Shown: in pieces, positions 1 through 12,028 of the stretch
Layout of the letters: each line of letters begins with the position of its first letter
How positions within the stretch are numbered: position 1 is the first letter of the stretch
From: a virus
Virus record (IMG/VR): IMGVR_UViG_3300027509_000002
Coordinates: 64,001-98,965 of that record
DNA: 34,965 bases
Strand: one strand, 5' to 3'
The notes under the pieces: generated by a model
Database searches by the model: none
Told to the model about the DNA's origin: nothing
What the model saw: only the letters and a program-made list of their open reading frames with translations
Program-made: the position numbers and the translations under genes

Positions 1-303
1 GACAATGCAATTGGCGTAGGTGATTATTCTAAGTTGATACATAGCAAGCTAGAATTAGAATGCAGTAAGACGTTCGGTAGAAATAAATTGTATGAGTATT
101 TAAGAGAAAAAGAAGTGCTACAGACTAAAGAAGATTATAATACCCCATTCCAAAAATATATCAAAGCTGGCTGGATGGAAGTGAATGCAGTTGTAAAAAA
201 CAATAAGTCATATAAAGTAGTCAAGATAAGGCCAAAAGGTCAAATAAAGATTTTAGAAATGATCAATAAAGATTACGGTACATCAATTTCATTTAAAAAA
301 TAA
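1..303 (+). CDS. KilAC-type antirepressor, C-terminal part (5' end cut by window)
   Basis: The frame is open from base 1 to the TAA at 301-303, giving 100 residues without an N-terminus, so this is a partial gene; the TTG at 34 is probably not its start. The pattern is that of the phage antirepressor KilAC (ANT) domain: a short helix-turn-helix-like stretch, then 'GRNKLYEYLREKEVL', then 'PFQKYIKAGWMEV', then basic strands ending in 'IRPKGQIKILEMI'. In that family the domain binds DNA and usually sits behind a variable N-terminal Bro, Ant or Rha domain, which is not visible here. It lies 4 bases before the next gene and heads the small-gene operon. Confidence 0.7.
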   Translation, partial: DNAIGVGDYSKLIHSKLELECSKTFGRNKLYEYLREKEVLQTKEDYNTPFQKYIKAGWMEVNAVVKNNKSYKVVKIRPKGQIKILEMINKDYGTSISFKK

Positions 304-307
304 AGAT

Positions 308-634
308 ATGGAAAAAATAATGCGAATAGAAAAGCCAGTAGAATTTGTGACTCTTACTGAACGTAGAAGAATATTAAAGGTGTTGTGTGCAATGCAGGTG
401 GCCTTAGATGACTTTGAACACATAGAAGATCAGGATTTATACTTGCAGAAGATAAAGTATCACGGAAATCAGTTTGCTAAGGCGTTATCTGAGCGTACAA
501 AATACGTACTAGATAAGGCAGAGGATAAAAAGATGTTGAATGAGATGCTGAATGGCCATAGCCAATTGACAGATTTGGTTGATAAGGTTGTGAGCTATGC
601 CTTGGCAGATAGATTAGAAATCAAGGAGATATGA
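308..634 (+). CDS. hypothetical protein, 108 aa
   Basis: I do not recognise this protein. It is predicted to be mostly helical and charged, with no membrane segment or signal peptide. The first ATG (308) follows the antirepressor stop by four bases, and an in-frame ATG at 320 is an alternative start. Its TGA stop overlaps the next gene's start in an ATGA junction, so it is probably co-transcribed and translationally coupled with the three genes after it. Likely a small cytoplasmic early-type phage protein. Confidence 0.7.
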   Translation: MEKIMRIEKPVEFVTLTERRRILKVLCAMQVALDDFEHIEDQDLYLQKIKYHGNQFAKALSERTKYVLDKAEDKKMLNEMLNGHSQLTDLVDKVVSYALADRLEIKEI

Positions 635-879
635 TAGAACAGATAGAGTGGGTGAGTGTAAAGGATAGGTTGCCAGATGCCACTGTGCAGCATGCAATGA
701 CTCTAGCCAGTTATCCAGTACTTACAAGACTAAGTGATGGAGAGATGGAGTTTAACGAGTATTTCATGACTTTTCAGGATAGTGAGTTAGGACAGAGGGT
801 ATCTGAAAAGGGATGGATAGATGAAGATAAAGAATATCCAGTAACACATTGGGCAACAATTAAAGGGCCAAAGATATGA
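631..879 (+). CDS. DUF551-like protein, 82 aa
   Basis: The protein opens with 'WVSVKDRLPD' and closes with 'VTHWATIKGPKI'. These match the two ends of the DUF551 family, small proteins common in phages whose function is unknown to me (typical forms are W-x-S-x-x-D-x-L-P at the front and V-T-H-W-x-P at the end). Length fits the family. The start overlaps the upstream stop (ATGA) and the end overlaps the next start in the same way, so it lies inside a tightly coupled small-gene operon. Confidence 0.7.
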   Translation: MIEQIEWVSVKDRLPDATVQHAMTLASYPVLTRLSDGEMEFNEYFMTFQDSELGQRVSEKGWIDEDKEYPVTHWATIKGPKI

Positions 880-1103
880 TTAGAAAAGCATTTTTAGATA
901 AAATATACGCCCGTAAGGCGGACGTGATGTCTGAAATACATAGGCTACACACCAAATCTAATTTACCAGTAGCTAAGTGCTGTGATGACATGGAATATAA
1001 GTCAGAAGATAAAGTAAGGTTAAATTCTCGCAGAAAAGAACTATTAAATATTAATCTGATAATACAGGACTATTTAGACATACATGATAATAACAATATA
1101 TGA
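876..1103 (+). CDS. hypothetical protein, 75 aa
   Basis: Small, basic, probably helical protein without recognised motifs. Two adjacent cysteines ('KCCDD') lie near residue 35, but there is no second Cys pair to suggest a zinc site. Start and stop are both embedded in ATGA overlaps with neighbouring genes, which supports it as a real coding gene. Function unknown. Confidence 0.65.
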   Translation: MIRKAFLDKIYARKADVMSEIHRLHTKSNLPVAKCCDDMEYKSEDKVRLNSRRKELLNINLIIQDYLDIHDNNNI

Positions 1104-1282
1104 GCAGATCGTTAGAGGGCAAGTATATCATTATTAATGCAGACATGAATGACTATTTTAAAAATGAAGACGGCAGCTTTAGGTTATTTGACACCAAAGC
1201 TGAGGCATGTATGGCTGCTGGTCTATATGAACTTGATCATTCAATGGTTGTAAAAATCGAATATTATCATATAGAGAATTAA
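1100..1282 (+). CDS. hypothetical protein, 60 aa
   Basis: Last gene of the four-gene overlapping series, starting in an ATGA overlap. The sequence 'LFDTKAEACMAAGLYELD' resembles the helix of small phage proteins that carry a 'TKAEA...A' segment, but I cannot name a family. It ends 29 bases before the two-component operon and just before a late-type promoter motif, so it probably belongs to a different transcription unit from the genes that follow. Confidence 0.65.
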   Translation: MSRSLEGKYIIINADMNDYFKNEDGSFRLFDTKAEACMAAGLYELDHSMVVKIEYYHIEN

Positions 1283-1295
1283 TCGTTTGAATTCC

Positions 1296-1306
1296 TTATT
1301 TTTATA
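1296..1306 (+). promoter_or_regulatory. late-type promoter motif TTATTTTTATA upstream of two-component operon
   Basis: Exact copy of the 11-base motif found before many structural genes in this window. The motif ends 5 bases before the ATG at 1312. It contains TAnnTTTA, a one-base variant of the Bacteroidetes -7 box TAnnTTTG. Its promoter role is inferred from recurrence and position. Confidence 0.5.
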
Positions 1307-1311
1307 GTATC

Positions 1312-1719
1312 ATGTTAAATGCAGTTAAAAATATGTTTTCGTTCAGTAAAAAGCAAAAAAGATTAGATGTCTTGATCATAGAAGATTCAGATGCTTATGT
1401 GTTTCTATTAACACAAAAGTTCAACAAGCATCCCAATGTATTCATAGATTCAATCGATAGTGTAGAAAAGGCTACATGGATGCTCACAGATAAAGAGTAT
1501 GGGCTTGTCTTATTAGATAATTCTTTAAATGGCATGGATGGTGAATTCAGCTTGCCCATTATCAAAGATTTAGTAGGTGATGTTAAAATCGTTATTATGA
1601 CTTCAAGTGAAGAGGGTGCAAAAAGATTAGATCGCATCTACAAGAATGTCGTACACAAAGAAGAAATCACAGATGAGTTTATTTCTTCATTAATAAATGA
1701 CAGCAATGGTTCAAAATAG
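1312..1719 (+). CDS. response regulator receiver-domain protein (single domain)
   Basis: A stand-alone CheY-like receiver of 135 residues. The acidic pair is E24-D25, the probable phospho-acceptor is D69 ('LVLLDNSLNGMDG'), the conserved Thr is T97 ('IVIMTSS') and the conserved Lys is K116 ('VVHKEEI'), so all switch residues are present. There is no DNA-binding or enzymatic output domain. It is the first gene of a three-gene operon with a histidine kinase and a second receiver; its end overlaps the kinase start by 14-23 bases. It probably exchanges phosphate with the kinase or with a host phosphorelay partner. A phage origin for such a gene is unusual. Confidence 0.88.
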   Translation: MLNAVKNMFSFSKKQKRLDVLIIEDSDAYVFLLTQKFNKHPNVFIDSIDSVEKATWMLTDKEYGLVLLDNSLNGMDGEFSLPIIKDLVGDVKIVIMTSSEEGAKRLDRIYKNVVHKEEITDEFISSLINDSNGSK

Positions 1720-2815
1720 CACAAATAACTTTAGGTTTTTAATTAAGCACGTACCAGCAGCAGTAGCTATGTTCAATGAGAATATAGAGTATATTGCATA
1801 TAGTGACAGATGGCTCAAAGATTATGAGCTAGGCGATCAAGATTTACACGGTAGATCTCACTATGAAGTATTTCCAGATATTTTAGAACGCTGGAAACAA
1901 GACCATCAAGATACTTTGCGTGGCAAGGTATGGAGGTCAGAAGAAGAAGAATGGGTAAGAGACGATGGATCAATAGTATATATCAGAGCTGAGCTTAGAC
2001 CATGGAGAAACAACTTAGATGAGATCAAAGGAATTATTATGTTCACAGAAGTTATTACTGATCAGGTTGTAACAAGAAAAGAGTTGGAAAAGAAAAATGA
2101 GGCTTTAAAGAATAAGATAAGCGATTTAAGACAAAAGAATAAAGAAGTAGAAGAATTTTCCTACATCGCTTCACATGACTTGCAAGAGCCATTGAGAATC
2201 ATTCAGTCTTATTGCGACTTCATTATAGATGAGTATAAAGACAAATTAGATGAGACAGGTAAAAAGAGTTTAGAATTCGTAGCCGACTCTACTGTTCGTA
2301 TGAGTAAATTAATTAAGGGCATATTGGCTTATTCTAAGTTAGGTAGGTCGCCATTATCTAATGCCATTAGCTGTAATAACTTAGTGAAGTCTGTTATTGA
2401 CTTTTCTATTGACAAAGGTGAAGTAGGTATTGAATCAAATATCAAAGTAAAAAGTCTACCAACGGTAAAGGGTTATAGATTAGAGCTACAAATGCTCTTT
2501 CAAAATCTCATATCTAATGCCATTAAGTATGTTAGAGAGGGCGTTACACCAGAGATAGAGATTTCCTGTATTGACAAGGAAGACCATTATGAATTCTGCG
2601 TATCAGATAACGGCATCGGAATTCCAAAAGAACATCAAGACAGGGTGTTTAAATTATTCCAGAGACTACATGATAGACATGCGTATGCAGGTATAGGTAT
2701 TGGACTATCACATTGTAAAAAAATAGTTTCTTTACATGACGGCAATATATGGGTAAAGGGTAATAAAATAGGTGGATCAGATTTCTTTTTCACCATAAAC
2801 AAACAACTGGAATGA
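1697..2815 (+). CDS. PAS-domain sensor histidine kinase (cytoplasmic)
   Basis: A 372-residue kinase with an N-terminal PAS domain (about residues 10-125), a coiled-coil linker (128-153), a HisKA dimerisation domain with H-box 'FSYIASHDLQEPLR' (phospho-acceptor H160), and an HATPase_c domain: N-box around N274 ('LFQNLISNAIKYV'), G1 box 'DNGIGIP' (304-310), F-box 'FKLFQRLH' and G2 box 'GIGIGL'. All catalytic boxes look intact. There is no membrane segment, so it should be cytoplasmic. The H-box and F-box resemble the bacteriophytochrome (Cph1-type) kinase group, but no chromophore-binding GAF domain is present. An internal ATG at 1706 is an equally possible start. The stop overlaps the next gene in ATGA. 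Confidence 0.93.
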   Translation: MTAMVQNSTNNFRFLIKHVPAAVAMFNENIEYIAYSDRWLKDYELGDQDLHGRSHYEVFPDILERWKQDHQDTLRGKVWRSEEEEWVRDDGSIVYIRAELRPWRNNLDEIKGIIMFTEVITDQVVTRKELEKKNEALKNKISDLRQKNKEVEEFSYIASHDLQEPLRIIQSYCDFIIDEYKDKLDETGKKSLEFVADSTVRMSKLIKGILAYSKLGRSPLSNAISCNNLVKSVIDFSIDKGEVGIESNIKVKSLPTVKGYRLELQMLFQNLISNAIKYVREGVTPEIEISCIDKEDHYEFCVSDNGIGIPKEHQDRVFKLFQRLHDRHAYAGIGIGLSHCKKIVSLHDGNIWVKGNKIGGSDFFFTINKQLE

Positions 2816-3225
2816 TAAATCGTATAGAATCAATAATGCTCGTAGATGACGATGAGGCCACTAATTTCTTAAATAAGATATTAATTAAGGACTCATCTGT
2901 AACTGTAGATGAAATAAGGGTAGCTTATAACGGATTAGAGGCAATTAACCATATAAAAGACTGCCATGCACATGGTGAACCGCTACCATCACTTGTGCTT
3001 CTGGATATAAATATGCCAGTAATGAATGGATGGGAGTTCTTAGATGAGTTCATAGCATTACCTTATTCAGATAAAATTACCTTAATTGCCATGGTGAGTA
3101 ACTCGTATGACGATGCTGACATTAAAAAAGCAAAAGCATTTAAACAAGTTGGTAGTTTCCTTAGAAAGCCCTTATCTAAGACCAAGATGCACAAAATCAT
3201 TCAGGATTACGTAGATTCTCTATAA
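2812..3225 (+). CDS. response regulator receiver-domain protein (Rcp1/CheY-like)
   Basis: A 137-residue stand-alone receiver. The acidic cluster is D12-D14 ('LVDDDEATNF'), the phospho-acceptor is D65 ('LVLLDINMPVMNGWEF') and the conserved Lys is K119 ('LRKPLS'); the Thr/Ser position is S96. It resembles the Rcp1-type receivers that partner phytochrome-like kinases and the single-domain receivers frequent in Bacteroidetes genomes. The start overlaps the kinase stop (ATGA), so kinase and regulator are coupled. With no output domain, it must act by protein-protein contact or as a phosphate shuttle or sink. Confidence 0.9.
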   Translation: MINRIESIMLVDDDEATNFLNKILIKDSSVTVDEIRVAYNGLEAINHIKDCHAHGEPLPSLVLLDINMPVMNGWEFLDEFIALPYSDKITLIAMVSNSYDDADIKKAKAFKQVGSFLRKPLSKTKMHKIIQDYVDSL

Positions 3226-3244
3226 TTTTATTTAAGTTTGTTTC

Positions 3245-4153
3245 ATGGAATTTAACAAATACCAAAGCCTTTGTAGGTTAGGAACAACAGAAGTGAATGG
3301 AATATTGGACGGTAAGTGCTATATATTTCCAAAACTGGATGGAACAAATGCATCAGTGTGGAAAGATATAACGGGCATTACTAGAGCTGGATCAAGAAAT
3401 AGAACATTAGAGCTAGGAGAAAGAGATAATAGAGGCTTCTATGGGTACGTGAGTGAGCATGCTGGTATCAATTTATTGTTACATCACTATCCAGCATTAA
3501 GGGTATTTGGTGAATGGCTCGTGCAGCACAGTTTCAAGAATTACAGAAAAGAAGCATTAAATAAGTTCTATGTATTCGATGTAGTAGAAGATAATCCAGA
3601 TGGGTCATATAGGTATTGGACATATGAAGAGTACCAGCCATTATTAGAAGAATACCAGATAGATTACATTCCACCAATCAAGATATTATCATTTCCATCA
3701 GAAGATGACATAATATTTCAGGCAAAATACAATAATAAATTCTTAGTAGAAGATGGAAAAGGAGTTGGAGAGGGTGTAGTAGTGAAGCGTTATGGTTACG
3801 TGAATAAATACGGTAGAGTCACGTGGGCTAAGTTTGTCACCTCTGAGTTCAAAGAAGTGCATACAAAGACTATGGGAGCACCAGAAGTGGAATTTGTGCC
3901 AGTGGAAAGAAAGATAGTGGACAAATACGTGACTAAAGCCCTCTGTGAGAAGATTCAGGCCAAGATAGAGAATGATATGGGTGATTGGAGTAGTAAATAC
4001 ATTCCAAGGCTCTTAAACACGGTCTATTACGATCTAGTGAGAGAAGACTGCTGGAATTTCATAAAAGAGCACAAGAATCCAACAATAGATTTTAAGAGAT
4101 TGCTTAACTGTACGATCAGTAAAGTGAAGGAACATTTACCAATGGTATTTTGA
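3245..4153 (+). CDS. RNA ligase (nucleotidyltransferase superfamily)
   Basis: A 302-residue protein with the ordered motifs of ATP-dependent RNA ligases: motif I 'KLDGTN' with the adenylated lysine at K30, motif III 'RVFGEWLV', motif IIIa 'KFYVFDVV', motif IV 'GEGVVVKRYG', and motif V 'TWAKFVTSEFKE'. The C-terminal ~90 residues form a separate helical domain, as in Rnl2-like ligases. It would seal breaks in RNA, for example tRNA or rRNA cleaved as a host defence, as known for T4 ligases; the substrate here is inferred. It follows the two-component operon by 19 bases without a clear promoter motif and precedes a small protein by one base. No partner kinase (Pnkp-like) is visible in the window. 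Confidence 0.88.
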   Translation: MEFNKYQSLCRLGTTEVNGILDGKCYIFPKLDGTNASVWKDITGITRAGSRNRTLELGERDNRGFYGYVSEHAGINLLLHHYPALRVFGEWLVQHSFKNYRKEALNKFYVFDVVEDNPDGSYRYWTYEEYQPLLEEYQIDYIPPIKILSFPSEDDIIFQAKYNNKFLVEDGKGVGEGVVVKRYGYVNKYGRVTWAKFVTSEFKEVHTKTMGAPEVEFVPVERKIVDKYVTKALCEKIQAKIENDMGDWSSKYIPRLLNTVYYDLVREDCWNFIKEHKNPTIDFKRLLNCTISKVKEHLPMVF

Positions 4154-4154
4154 T

Positions 4155-4427
4155 ATGAAGTGGTGGCAAAAGAGAGTTAGAGGTTGGACAGTACCTTTTT
4201 GGTTTACTTGGACACCCATATATAGCAAACTGTATGTGAAGCTCAGCAAATTTACTGACATTTCAAAAGCAGTTAGTGATCAAAGAAACGGTAAGAATCC
4301 ACAAGGATTGCTCACATTTGATAAGGAATTAACCAAAGAACAGTTAGATGAGCTCAAAAAAGCATTCAAAGAAAGCGGACAAATCTTCTACAAAGAAGAA
4401 AAAAAGCAGAATGATCAATCCTCATGA
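4155..4427 (+). CDS. hypothetical protein, 90 aa
   Basis: Not recognised. The N-terminal third is rich in Trp and aromatic residues ('WTVPFWFTWTP'), too polar overall for a clear membrane segment; the C-terminal half is a charged helix ending in Lys/Glu repeats. The ATG lies one base after the RNA ligase stop (TGATATG), so the two are probably translated from one message. Its last 17 bases overlap the next small gene. Confidence 0.6.
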   Translation: MKWWQKRVRGWTVPFWFTWTPIYSKLYVKLSKFTDISKAVSDQRNGKNPQGLLTFDKELTKEQLDELKKAFKESGQIFYKEEKKQNDQSS

Positions 4428-4503
4428 TGGATCGTTAAAGGCTTCTACTCAGGTACATAAGGATAAGAAGAAGTACACAAGAAAGAAAAAGCATAAAGAG
4501 TAG
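4411..4503 (+). CDS. small basic peptide, 30 aa
   Basis: A short reading frame from the ATG at 4411 to TAG at 4501-4503, followed at once by a second TAG. The product is very basic in its C-terminal half ('KDKKKYTRKKKHKE'), with a polar 'NPHDGSLKAS' front. It overlaps the previous gene in another frame. The composition suggests a nucleic-acid-binding or RNA-polymerase/ribosome-associated peptide, but this is only inference. Its small size makes chance a real alternative. Confidence 0.4.
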   Translation: MINPHDGSLKASTQVHKDKKKYTRKKKHKE

Positions 4504-4511
4504 TAGTAATT

Positions 4512-4552
4512 TTGTCGCAAATATCGTAACAATATGCGACAATAATTGTTAC
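4512..4552. repeat. two interleaved perfect inverted repeats
   Basis: Arm A TTGTCGCA (4512-4519) pairs with A' TGCGACAA (4535-4542). Arm B GTAACAAT (4526-4533) pairs with B' ATTGTTAC (4545-4552). The order A-B-A'-B' means the two stems exclude one another or form a pseudoknot if transcribed; as DNA they could be two overlapping operators. B' runs into the promoter-like motif of the next gene. Confidence 0.65.
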
Positions 4553-4559
4553 ATTTATA
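4549..4559 (+). promoter_or_regulatory. late-type promoter motif variant TTACATTTATA
   Basis: One mismatch from TTATNTTTATA; ends 17 bases before the ATG at 4577. It overlaps the last arm of the interleaved inverted repeats, which would let a bound protein or RNA structure control it. Confidence 0.35.
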
Positions 4560-4576
4560 CTCAATCAAAACATAAC

Positions 4577-4810
4577 ATGGAATACAAACATTTAAGAAAG
4601 CATTTAAGCCCAGATGAATTGGCTAATATAGATAAGCATTTAGAGACATTAGCCACCAATAGAAATAAAATAGTTGGTAGAAATCAATCTAAAAAAGATA
4701 TTCATGACTTATATGCCCTTGAAGAAATTTGTGCTATGAACTGTTATACAGTAAATAAATCATATGCCATTGAAACATGGCCAGAGTTTTACCCAAACGA
4801 ACAACAATGA
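4577..4810 (+). CDS. hypothetical protein, 77 aa
   Basis: Not recognised. A charged, helical small protein ('LRKHLSPDELANIDKHLETL') with no membrane segment. It is the first gene after the interleaved inverted repeats and a promoter-like motif. Its TGA stop overlaps the start of the HD-domain gene (ATGA at 4807), so the pair is probably coupled. It might modulate or partner the hydrolase, an inference from linkage only. Confidence 0.65.
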   Translation: MEYKHLRKHLSPDELANIDKHLETLATNRNKIVGRNQSKKDIHDLYALEEICAMNCYTVNKSYAIETWPEFYPNEQQ

Positions 4811-5316
4811 CTGATCTTCTAAAAGCGTTCAAATTAGCTACTCAGTACCATGGAAACCAAATGTACGGTAATAAGCCGTACATATATCATTTAAGTCAAG
4901 TGGTAGGGGTCTTAATGAAATGGAATGCAACAGAAGATGAAATAATAGCAGGAGCTCTTCATGACATCCTAGAAGATACAGGTATTCATTGGTTTGATTT
5001 AGTAGATGCATGTCCCAATACTGAGACGGCAGCAATCATATGTGACGTAACTGATGAAGATGGTGAGCATCGGAAGGATCGAAAGTTAAAAACATACGCA
5101 CATCTCATTAATAATGAGTCCGCATTGATAGTTAAATTAGCGGATCGATATTGTAATTTAAGGTATTCATGGAAGTCTGGAAATAAAAAGAAGCTAGATA
5201 TGTATCTCAAAGAACATCAGTTCTTTGTTGACTGCCTGTATAGAGAGTATCACAGCGTTAGAATACAAAAGGCGTGGATGGCAGTCACTACTCTACATGG
5301 ATCTATCTTGAAATGA
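4807..5316 (+). CDS. HD-domain phosphohydrolase, SpoT/MESH1-like
   Basis: The start is set at 4807 because this ATG overlaps the upstream stop (ATGA); a frame-internal ATG at 4777 would add ten residues inside the previous gene. The 169-residue product has the metal-binding layout of the (p)ppGpp hydrolase HD domain: H28 ('PYIYHL'), H52-D53 and E56-D57 ('GALHDILEDT'), and D113 ('IVKLADRYCNLR', compare KLADRxxNxR). No synthetase (RelA) or regulatory TGS/ACT domain follows, so it is a small alarmone-hydrolase type. It could remove (p)ppGpp or a related alarmone during infection; the substrate is inferred from family. Confidence 0.82.
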   Translation: MTDLLKAFKLATQYHGNQMYGNKPYIYHLSQVVGVLMKWNATEDEIIAGALHDILEDTGIHWFDLVDACPNTETAAIICDVTDEDGEHRKDRKLKTYAHLINNESALIVKLADRYCNLRYSWKSGNKKKLDMYLKEHQFFVDCLYREYHSVRIQKAWMAVTTLHGSILK

Positions 5317-5339
5317 ATGAGTACATAATTCACTCATTC
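5315..5339. terminator. inverted repeat after HD hydrolase gene (weak terminator or operator)
   Basis: GAATGAGT (5315-5322) pairs perfectly with ACTCATTC (5332-5339) around a 9-base loop. It begins at the stop codon of the HD gene and is followed by A/T-rich sequence rather than a clean T run, so a terminator role is uncertain. Confidence 0.35.
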
Positions 5340-5348
5340 TCATAATAA

Positions 5349-5359
5349 TTATATTTATA
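5349..5359 (+). promoter_or_regulatory. late-type promoter motif TTATATTTATA
   Basis: Exact match to TTATNTTTATA, ending 13 bases before the ATG at 5373, at the boundary between the non-structural and tail regions. Confidence 0.5.
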
Positions 5360-5372
5360 TAAATAAATTGTT

Positions 5373-5726
5373 ATGACAAAAAAAGATATTATTCGTGAAT
5401 TACAATACTTAGGTATTGATTTTGATCCAAAAAGCACAAAGCAAGAGTTATTTGATGTACTTAATAGTCAGTCTCTTACATCAACTTCAAACGATGCAGA
5501 CAGTCTGCATAAAGTAGAAGAAGTGCAGCCATTGGCAGCAGAAATGGCGTTGGAAGAATTTGCAGGGGTAGAAATAAAAGACTATATGCCCATGTCTGCT
5601 TTTGATTTTTGTAAACAAGCAAATATTCGTGGATTCAATAAGAACTTCTTAGTAAAGAAGTATTCAATGCATCAATTTCCAATAGAAGAATGGAAAGCGA
5701 TTATGACAAAAGAAAAACTAAGCTAG
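5373..5726 (+). CDS. HeH/SAP-like small protein, 117 aa, upstream of tail sheath
   Basis: The N-terminal 30 residues ('KKDIIRELQYLGIDFDPK' then 'TKQELFDVL') resemble the helix-extension-helix HeH/LEM/SAP-like fold that occurs in many small phage structural or assembly proteins. The middle is Ser/Thr/Asp-rich and probably flexible; the end is again helical. It sits alone between two late-type promoter motifs, immediately upstream of the sheath gene, so a role in the virion or head-tail joining is plausible but not shown. Confidence 0.65.
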   Translation: MTKKDIIRELQYLGIDFDPKSTKQELFDVLNSQSLTSTSNDADSLHKVEEVQPLAAEMALEEFAGVEIKDYMPMSAFDFCKQANIRGFNKNFLVKKYSMHQFPIEEWKAIMTKEKLS

Positions 5727-7433: not shown

Positions 7434-8057
7434 ATGATTGTTTACTGTACCACTAATTTAGTTAACGGAAGAAAATACATAGGGCAGGATTGCAATGACA
7501 ATCCTGCCTATTATGGTTCTGGAACATTAATTAAAAAAGCAATAAATAAGTACGGTAAAGAGAATTTTAAAAAAGAAATCTTAGCTCATGCAGAAGACTC
7601 TAGTCAATTAAATGATTTGGAAAAATACTATATAGAGTACTATGGTGCTGACCAATCTAGCTTGTTCTACAATATAGAATCTGGTGGCAAATCAAGCCCA
7701 TGTGCTGCTTCTACAAAAGAGAAATTAAGAATATATAATACAGGCAAAAAGCATTCGCAGGAAACTAAAGATAAGGTGTCCAAGGCATTTAAAGGAAGAG
7801 TGTCGCCAACAAAGGGCATGAAGATGTCAGAAGAGACAAAGCGTAAAATATCACTTGCAAATCAAGGCAAGAAAAGGACTGATGGGTTTAAAAGGCGAAT
7901 GAGGGAGATTCATTTAGGGCGAAAAGCAACTGATGAGCAAAAAACCAAGATGTCCATTAGTGCAAAAAAAAGATGTGCTAGGGGTATATCGGAGGAAACA
8001 AGAAAAAAATTGTCGGAAGCATCCAAGAAAAGTTGGGCTGCAAGAAAGAAGAAATAA
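7434..8057 (+). CDS. GIY-YIG homing endonuclease with NUMOD3-like repeats
   Basis: A 207-residue protein. The N-terminal GIY-YIG nuclease domain (about 1-90) shows 'IVYCTTNLVNGRKYIGQ', 'YYGSGTLIKKAINKYG', 'LEKYYIEYYG' and 'YNIESGG'. It is followed by four NUMOD3-like DNA-binding repeats of the type 'SEETKRKISLANQGKK', ending in a Lys/Arg-rich tail. It starts three bases after the sheath stop and ends just before the tube promoter, so it is a free-standing mobile gene placed between two structural genes without breaking either. It would cut related phage genomes lacking it, probably in the neighbouring sheath or tube gene (inference from known SegA-like behaviour). Confidence 0.9.
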   Translation: MIVYCTTNLVNGRKYIGQDCNDNPAYYGSGTLIKKAINKYGKENFKKEILAHAEDSSQLNDLEKYYIEYYGADQSSLFYNIESGGKSSPCAASTKEKLRIYNTGKKHSQETKDKVSKAFKGRVSPTKGMKMSEETKRKISLANQGKKRTDGFKRRMREIHLGRKATDEQKTKMSISAKKRCARGISEETRKKLSEASKKSWAARKKK

Positions 8058-10754: not shown

Positions 10755-10775
10755 GCTTTAGTTATTTTTATATTA
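10755..10775 (+). promoter_or_regulatory. late-type promoter motif overlapping metalloprotease start
   Basis: Identical over 21 bases to the sheath promoter region 5750-5770, with exact TTATTTTTATA at 10762-10772. The ATG at 10775 lies only two bases after the core, so if this is a -7 element the message is nearly leaderless. Confidence 0.5.
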
Positions 10776-12028
10776 TGAACATTCTATTATTCCTACCATT
10801 ACTCTTTACGAATCCAGACACCAATGAATACGTTACTTGCTTAGAGGGTGAGATCGATACTTCACTAAATCACGTATCAGAACCACTATATTATAGTTTT
10901 GCAGAAGACTGTAGAATTGTTGATTACTTTGCAGTAGCCGATTATCAAATGTATTTAGATTTTGGATCAAACGTAAGTGCTGTAGTGAACCATATAGAAA
11001 CTGTTACGGCTTTAAGTAATGACGATTATCAAAATGCATTTAGTACTGAAATTCAATTGAATTTAGTTGGAACATATGTTTCTACCAGCCCATCGGCTGA
11101 TTTATGGAATGATTCTACGCCCACTAGCATTATTAATCAATTATCCCAATTTAGATCATGGGATCAGTCAGGTGGAATTACAGTGCCACATGAATTGGCA
11201 TCTCTATGGACAGGTACGGATTATTCAGGAAGTGTTATTGGCATTGCGTATGTAGGTGGCGTATGTAGAGGCGTACCGTATAATGTATTAGAATACTACA
11301 ATACTGATCCAAATATGCTAAGACAGTTAATGACACATGAGATCGGACATAATTTTTCTGCTGGACATGATCCATCTGGAACTTCATTTATTATGTCGCC
11401 ATTGGTATCAGGAACAAATTTATGGAGCTCTGCAAGTATAGTAGAAATAAGTGAATTTATAGATGACAACAATTCATGTTTAACTGAATGCACAACAACA
11501 ATAGACCCAGAAGAACCAGATACATGTATAGGTGATGTAACTATATACGATACTACATTTATTCCAGTGAACATTCCAGTAACAATGTATGACACTACTA
11601 TTATACCTGTACAGATAGATGACACTACATATAACGATGTAATTGTAAATGTGTATGACACTAATGTGATTATAGTTCAAACACATGATACCATTATTAC
11701 ACAGATCAATATTAATGAGTACGACACGAACATTACGATCATTAATGTGGTAGATACTACTTACAACAACATTATCGTAGTTGTAGAGGTTACAGAATAC
11801 GATACGATTATCGAATACATCTATGTAACAGATACCATTATAGTAGATACTATCTACATAACAGATACAATATGTGATTTTACAACGGGATTTGGAACGC
11901 CAATAAGCCCAGAAAATGCACCACCTCATGTGAGGGGTACATATACTATTCTAGGCCAGCAAATAGGAGCAATAAGGAAATCAGGCTACTATATTATTGA
12001 TGGGGTATTGTATTATGTGAGCTTTTAG
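10775..12028 (+). CDS. secreted metzincin zinc protease with Asp-Thr-rich stalk and possible T9SS-like C-terminus
   Basis: A 417-residue protein. A short hydrophobic N-terminus ('NILLFLPLLF') may be a minimal export signal. The protease domain (about 45-235) carries the metzincin zinc site 'THEIGHNFSAGHD' (H188, E189, H192, H198) and a Met-turn 'SFIMSP' (M207), as in reprolysin-like M12B peptidases. Residues about 255-365 repeat 'YDTT...' units of roughly 12-25 residues, a linker type seen in Bacteroidetes exported proteins. The end, 'GTYTILGQQIG' then 'KSGYYIIDGVLYYVSF', resembles a shortened T9SS type A sorting domain. It shares its promoter sequence with the sheath gene, so it is probably expressed late. 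Its target (host surface layer, exopolymer-associated protein, or capsid) is unknown. Confidence 0.82.
   Translation: MNILLFLPLLFTNPDTNEYVTCLEGEIDTSLNHVSEPLYYSFAEDCRIVDYFAVADYQMYLDFGSNVSAVVNHIETVTALSNDDYQNAFSTEIQLNLVGTYVSTSPSADLWNDSTPTSIINQLSQFRSWDQSGGITVPHELASLWTGTDYSGSVIGIAYVGGVCRGVPYNVLEYYNTDPNMLRQLMTHEIGHNFSAGHDPSGTSFIMSPLVSGTNLWSSASIVEISEFIDDNNSCLTECTTTIDPEEPDTCIGDVTIYDTTFIPVNIPVTMYDTTIIPVQIDDTTYNDVIVNVYDTNVIIVQTHDTIITQININEYDTNITIINVVDTTYNNIIVVVEVTEYDTIIEYIYVTDTIIVDTIYITDTICDFTTGFGTPISPENAPPHVRGTYTILGQQIGAIRKSGYYIIDGVLYYVSF

Follow-up and report, generated by a model that had tools for sequence, protein, structure and literature searches.

A myophage genome carries three overlapping genes that are, by every sequence feature examined, a two-component system: an output-free receiver (REC1), a soluble PAS histidine kinase (HK) and a second output-free receiver (REC2). 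Taken as a whole, the findings are best explained by a three-gene phage two-component cassette that would be made late and act by protein contact, a reading held with slightly better than even confidence. Accounts of how phages influence host two-component systems usually involve inhibitors or lone genes. The novelty here lies in a three-gene form carried by a phage, with receivers of two classes, together with its repeated acquisition; no paper on phage two-component cassettes was found in the open-access literature searched.

The operon and its genomic setting

The stretch of DNA analysed (34,965 nucleotides, hereafter the window) comprises positions 64001-98965 of a 98,965-base IMG/VR virus record. 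The contig has a 127-base terminal repeat, and a second IMG/VR contig (IMGVR_UViG_3300005654_000003) crosses the contig-end junction and is identical over the stretches compared, namely the 21-kb operon region and the junction side, which together indicate a circular genome of ~98.8 kb. Encoded on the contig are sheath, baseplate, portal, head protease, DNA polymerase, a DnaB-type helicase, a UvsX-like recombinase and a DNA-transfer family protein (T5 A1-like). Conserved phage genes lie on both sides of the operon, and gene order and content parallel those of Chryseobacterium phage MA9V-3, making a Bacteroidota host likely. The source of the window is a circular myophage of ~98.8 kb related to MA9V-3. 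The first-pass annotation, made from the sequence alone, had named a bacterial chromosome or an assembly chimera as what would overturn its reading; both are ruled out by the circularity, the second identical contig and the MA9V-3-like gene order. Elsewhere on the contig (41414-42895; L010:1414-2892), a 493-aa protein is matched weakly by families of head maturation protease and of ADP-ribosyltransferase.

The operon consists of three ORFs of 135, 372 and 137 aa (Table 1), with an overlap of 23 bases between REC1 and HK and of 4 bases between HK and REC2. ORFs and Pfam domains thus bear out the receiver-kinase-receiver arrangement that the first-pass annotation had proposed, and the catalytic residues it had picked, H160, D69 and D65, are correct. 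All Pfam assignments exceed the curated cut-offs: Response_reg (PF00072) for REC1 (1.3e-9) and REC2 (5.9e-13), and PAS_4 (2.6e-7), HisKA (3.9e-10) and HATPase_c (5.2e-24) for HK. By Pfam and alignment, the H, N (N270/N274), D-x-G (D304), F and G2 (G332/334/336) boxes of HK are intact. With domains and residues intact, the set is complete, as had been claimed. Pfam reveals no transmembrane or DNA-binding domain in the three proteins, in agreement with the earlier statement that a DNA-binding output is lacking. The GC content of the operon is 0.343, against 0.347 for the contig.

Table 1. Window coordinates of the operon, its key residues and neighbouring features
Feature	Position	Strand	Basis
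Accessory block, window part	1..5726	+	neck gene and sheath adjacent or nearly so in relatives compared
Late-gene motif TTATTTTTATA, likely a phage late promoter element	1296..1306	+	5 bases before REC1 ATG
REC1, output-free receiver (D25, D69, T97, K116), class B with moderate strength	1312..1719	+	Pfam, fold, receiver tree
REC1 phospho-acceptor D69 codon	1516..1518	+	sequence, alignment
HK, soluble PAS_4-HisKA-HATPase_c histidine kinase	1697..2815	+	Pfam, core identity, tree
PAS domain of HK, aa 11-121, 3LUQ subtype	1727..2059	+	E 6.9e-30
HK phospho-acceptor H160 codon (SHDLQEPLR)	2174..2176	+	invariant in kinase alignment
REC2, output-free class A (Rcp1-like, KP) receiver	2812..3225	+	Pfam, receiver tree, PDB
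REC2 phospho-acceptor D65 codon	3004..3006	+	sequence, alignment

The two receivers are of different kinds, class A denoting Rcp1-like receivers and class B the type usually joined to an output (GGDEF, PAS, GAF-HisKA_2 or a coiled coil). From sequence and alignments, REC2 has the acidic pocket (D12-14), D65, S95 and K118, and carries a KPL motif. It falls inside starred Bacteroidota class A receiver sets (95-99) of the receiver tree, and its best PDB match is 3ILH, followed by Rcp1 types. REC1 likewise has its acidic pocket (E24/D25) along with the remaining receiver residues, but its alpha4-beta5 stretch is short and hence it first looked doubtful. The AlphaFold2 model is that of a complete (beta-alpha)5 receiver (mean pLDDT 85) with K116 directly after beta5, and the best fold matches are ordinary receivers, led by that of a REC-sensory box-GGDEF protein (3H5I and its fusions). 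REC1 has neither the Rcp1/Bacteroidota grouping of class A nor the KP motif (its K is followed by E, not P), and the receiver tree places it with class B, a placement of moderate strength because of its long end branch (2.98). Its chain ends at residue 135, after alpha5, with no C-terminal output domain. With such high divergence, REC1 may be taking on a different role.

A 12.5-kb block (contig 57208-69726) separates the neck gene from the tail sheath; besides small ORFs it contains an HNH endonuclease, an AntA-KilAC antirepressor, the operon itself, an RNA ligase and a SpoT-like HD protein. Among the relatives compared (MA9V-3 and sheath-related IMG/VR contigs), the homologue of the gene at contig 56368 adjoins the sheath, with short ORFs only between. 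Neither such a kinase nor a receiver was detected in the sheath-related records (19 scanned, excluding the second contig of the window phage; some are fragments), and no kinase of this kind occurs in MA9V-3, MT835500 or the RNA-ligase relatives. The HATPase matches in the contigs G008 and G021 are ORFs of 725-753 aa, probably topoisomerase. An orthologous operon in sister phages was therefore rejected, since the sheath and RNA-ligase relatives scanned lack this kinase, and the absence of block, kinase and receivers from relatives marks the operon as lineage-specific cargo.

Several neighbours deserve mention in their own right. The AntA-KilAC gene (window 1-303, contig 63521-64303) is upstream of the operon within the block. 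The RNA ligase gene (phrog_548; window 3245-4153) begins ~20 bases after REC2 and has relatives in the unrelated phage contigs G002 and G003; within 1 kb of the G003 relative is a single orphan receiver-fold ORF (L017 11638-12045, minus strand), which may be of the cRec type considered below. Directly 3' of the sheath gene is a NUMOD3/SegE-like GIY-YIG homing endonuclease (window 7434-8057). PADLOC profiles for anti-phage defence proteins gave weak partial matches of the operon to candidate families only.

The window holds 6 copies of the 11-base motif TTATTTTTATA, where 0.22 would be expected, and 0 of 100 shuffles reached that count. Across the contig there are 11 copies on the plus strand and 1 on the minus strand; 10 of the 11 plus-strand copies are followed within 45 bases by the ATG of an ORF that is 60 aa or longer (the fraction by chance being 0.23). 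Besides the operon, the genes it precedes include the portal gene at contig 29181, the sheath gene at 69793, the reprolysin-like metalloprotease gene at 74775, two genes at 78687 and 85795 (both in the tail/baseplate region by MA9V-3 synteny) and one at 96607, and it is nearly as close to the REC1 ATG as to the starts at 74775 and 85795. Position and enrichment thus uphold the earlier remark that operon and tail genes are preceded by the same motif, which is likely to be a late promoter element. Exact copies are mostly lacking in the relatives tested, so that the promoter role is argued from position and enrichment. The reprolysin-like (M12B) metalloprotease gene behind the motif (window 10775-12028) belongs to another insertion, 6 kb long and flanked by tail genes, which is likewise absent from relatives.

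Recurrence of kinase-receiver cassettes in viruses

Two pattern-based IMG/VR scans with kinase alignments, together with a domain survey, identified 17 distinct viral lineages, the window and a Microcoleus phage included, in which a kinase and two receiver genes are clustered. The receiver-kinase-receiver order, for which the first-pass annotation had suggested searching, does recur, being found in 8 lineages including the window; the order is HK-REC-REC in 9, with one ORF between the two receivers in L162/L163. The receiver tree divides each of the 17 cassettes alike, with one receiver in class A and the other in class B. Among annotated phages (50,697 records) there is one convincing parallel, Microcoleus phage My-WqHQDG. 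The claim that complete sets are rare in phage genomes does not hold given the 16 other lineages in IMG/VR and the phage collection, and should be replaced by the statement that such sets are rare in annotated phages and recurrent in large uncultivated ones.

The cassette of My-WqHQDG (OR578706, WOL31350-31352) also consists of overlapping phage-borne genes for HK, a class A and a class B receiver. However, its order is HK-A-B, its B receiver is tailed, a coiled-coil-like gene with a hydrophobic segment follows the receivers, and its kinase is not close to the window HK. The cassettes of G427, G433, G439/G441, G440 and G455 have the same order as the window, namely class B receiver, PAS kinase and class A receiver, but their B receivers are of 301-350 aa with a C-terminal extension, whereas that of the window is bare. 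The output of the class B receiver varies more widely: it is GGDEF in two lineages, PAS in one and none in the window and L163, while in G427 and G433 the receiver carries a coiled-coil-like region with a hydrophobic C-terminus. An XhlA-like identity for this coiled-coil output was a guess, with no Pfam match, and was set aside. In L113 and L114 (contigs of 133 and 153 kb), HK and a receiver accompany a REC-GGDEF protein, making virus-encoded cyclic-di-GMP synthesis possible. In L106, L112 and L118, a coiled-coil-like protein whose C-terminal segment is hydrophobic is either fused to the class B receiver or encoded after it, an arrangement suggestive of a membrane-linked output. Among phages described in the literature, Clostridioides phage phiCDHM1 likewise carries a histidine kinase, but this is an AgrC-type quorum-sensing kinase in a phage with no response regulator (PMC3901668), in contrast to the two receivers of the window.

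Confidence that these contigs are phages differs among them. A terminase profile also matches bacterial genomes, and a terminase match alone is thus not taken as proof. Phage status is well supported for G427 (portal, terminase and major head protein) and for G433, which has 51 proteins in common with G427, among them a major head protein at 93% identity. Long terminase ORFs also support it well for G439/G441, G442, G443/G444, G455, G432, G457 and the Microcoleus phage, and it is less certain for G440, G446/G447, G451/G452, G453/G454, G428, G434 and G435. Two groups were not counted. Many Listeria and Staphylococcus 'phage' matches lie on small contigs that lack annotation and probably represent bacterial DNA carried along in phage preparations, and L100, which the kinase tree shows as a viral row near HK, is an 8-kb provirus-like contig with a methyltransferase and a terminase-like ORF, beside a leucine-rich gene.

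In the kinase tree, HK falls within a starred set of 11 bacterial rows and one viral row. A single viral ancestor for all viral kinases is rejected (p-AU 0.0001); a constrained clade of the window HK with the G427 and G433 kinases is not (p-AU 0.12). The receivers of the G427, G433, G439/G441, G440 and G455 cassettes belong to a lineage apart from those of the window, as do their kinases in the free tree. Judged from such sequence comparisons, the three-gene cassette has entered phages more than once.

Bacterial relatives and origin

Matches to HK at E<=1e-40 are present in 123 of 396 Bacteroidota genomes, the best being 37% identical over nearly the full length (43-47% in the kinase core). 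At 22 of the 30 best Bacteroidota kinase loci a receiver gene is adjacent, and at 11 of the 30 (12 if one ORF between is allowed) the order HK-REC-REC forms a single run, the third gene encoding REC-GAF-HisKA_2 in both such loci scanned. Bacteroidota chromosomes thus show a similar kinase-A-B order, and the cassette is bacterial in kind. Their PAS kinases and Rcp1-like receivers share the HK-receiver adjacency of the window, with receiver identity of at most 42%, but the kinases are often longer, with extra sensor domains, and the second receiver is downstream, with GAF-HisKA_2 where tested, whereas REC1 is bare and upstream. The cyanobacterial Cph1-Rcp1 and bacteriophytochrome-BRR pairs (PDB 1I3C, 1JLK, 5BRJ) likewise combine a soluble kinase with an output-free class A receiver; the window HK, however, has PAS only and lacks the phytochrome chromophore domain, and the window adds an extra receiver.

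Capture of HK and REC2 from a Bacteroidota-like source is supported by these comparisons. The earlier suggestions of capture from a host, and of similar single-domain receivers in flavobacteria, therefore stand in part: the Bacteroidota trees favour the former for HK and REC2, and the latter fits REC2. Neither extends to REC1, which has no close relative and no match at E<=1e-10 in the 396 Bacteroidota genomes.

A captured Bacteroidota kinase-receiver operon could instead be cargo of a hypervariable insertion site, acquired along with other ORFs, with no phage role and heading to decay. Such an outcome would fit an operon within a block that relatives lack, and sheath-related records in which no receiver and only two HATPase matches, in other, longer ORFs, were found. 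It is unlikely, however, as each of the three genes keeps an intact frame and intact catalytic residues and the overlaps between them are preserved, the GC content fits the phage, the late motif is correctly placed and the same type of cassette recurs in unrelated viruses. In addition, HK is at most 47% identical to any bacterial core seen, so that the capture does not look recent.

Proposed working of the cassette

In the late, contact-acting cassette favoured here, the operon would be made late in infection, the PAS domain would read an intracellular ligand or state, and HK would autophosphorylate at H160 under PAS gating. Energy or redox sensing and the timing of lysis, which the first-pass annotation had raised, are conjectural. 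Phosphate would pass to D65 of REC2, D69 of REC1 or both, with one receiver the effector on a host or phage protein and the other a competing phosphate sink or second effector. Receivers that lack output domains point to action by contact, and a Bacteroidota host rich in kinases and receivers of the same kind suggests that the set probably biases host phosphosignalling during virion assembly rather than switching phage transcription directly. No Hpt was found in the phage contig, so that any relay would need host proteins; an Hpt-like gene, read by eye, is present at one close bacterial kinase locus, and the cassette may be linked into host relays. Most economically, a kinase-A-B cassette of Bacteroidota type would have been retained by the phage with its sensor, kinase and receivers but lacking the B output, so that the bare receivers would act on partners.

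More broadly, phages, above all those with large genomes, may repeatedly maintain a cassette of one kinase, one class A and one class B receiver in which the B output is interchangeable (GGDEF, PAS, a coiled coil whose C-terminus is hydrophobic, or no output at all); the window would then carry a minimal, independently acquired version under late control. The chances that phages in this manner run their own phosphosignalling in infection are judged to be about even. Equipped with a full cassette and a sensor of its own, a phage could gauge the state of the infected cell and respond late in infection. Since a kinase with both receiver classes recurs across 17 viral lineages, the question is testable and fairly general.

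The output-free receivers would also suit a decoy, whereby they bind or drain phosphate from host kinases and HK works mainly as a phosphatase, so that stress or defence signalling of the host is silenced. The abundance of related kinases in the host phylum, the Hpt-like gene noted above and the best NCBIfam match of REC1, a weak one (3e-6) to the receiver part of PorX, are in keeping with this. A kinase whose ATP-binding domain and PAS sensor are intact would, however, be superfluous in a pure decoy, and other viral cassettes retain B-receiver outputs (GGDEF, PAS), leaving the decoy a doubtful explanation.

It is very improbable that the receivers are cRec-type cyclic-phosphate-processing domains acting in RNA repair with the neighbouring ligase, a role proposed for divergent receivers of jumbo phages whose genes are reported to be linked, as here, to RNA ligases (PMC7824862), since cRec domains are described as never co-occurring with histidine kinases (PMC7824862), whereas in the window HK lies between the receivers, and since REC1 and REC2 each match classical Response_reg, with no match of either to PF20274 (cREC_REC) at 1e-3. 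A few genes past the RNA ligase, window 4777-5316 encodes a 179-aa HD_4 protein that matches the N-terminal hydrolase part of RelA/SpoT (TIGR00691, 4e-14) and is a possible phage alarmone hydrolase.
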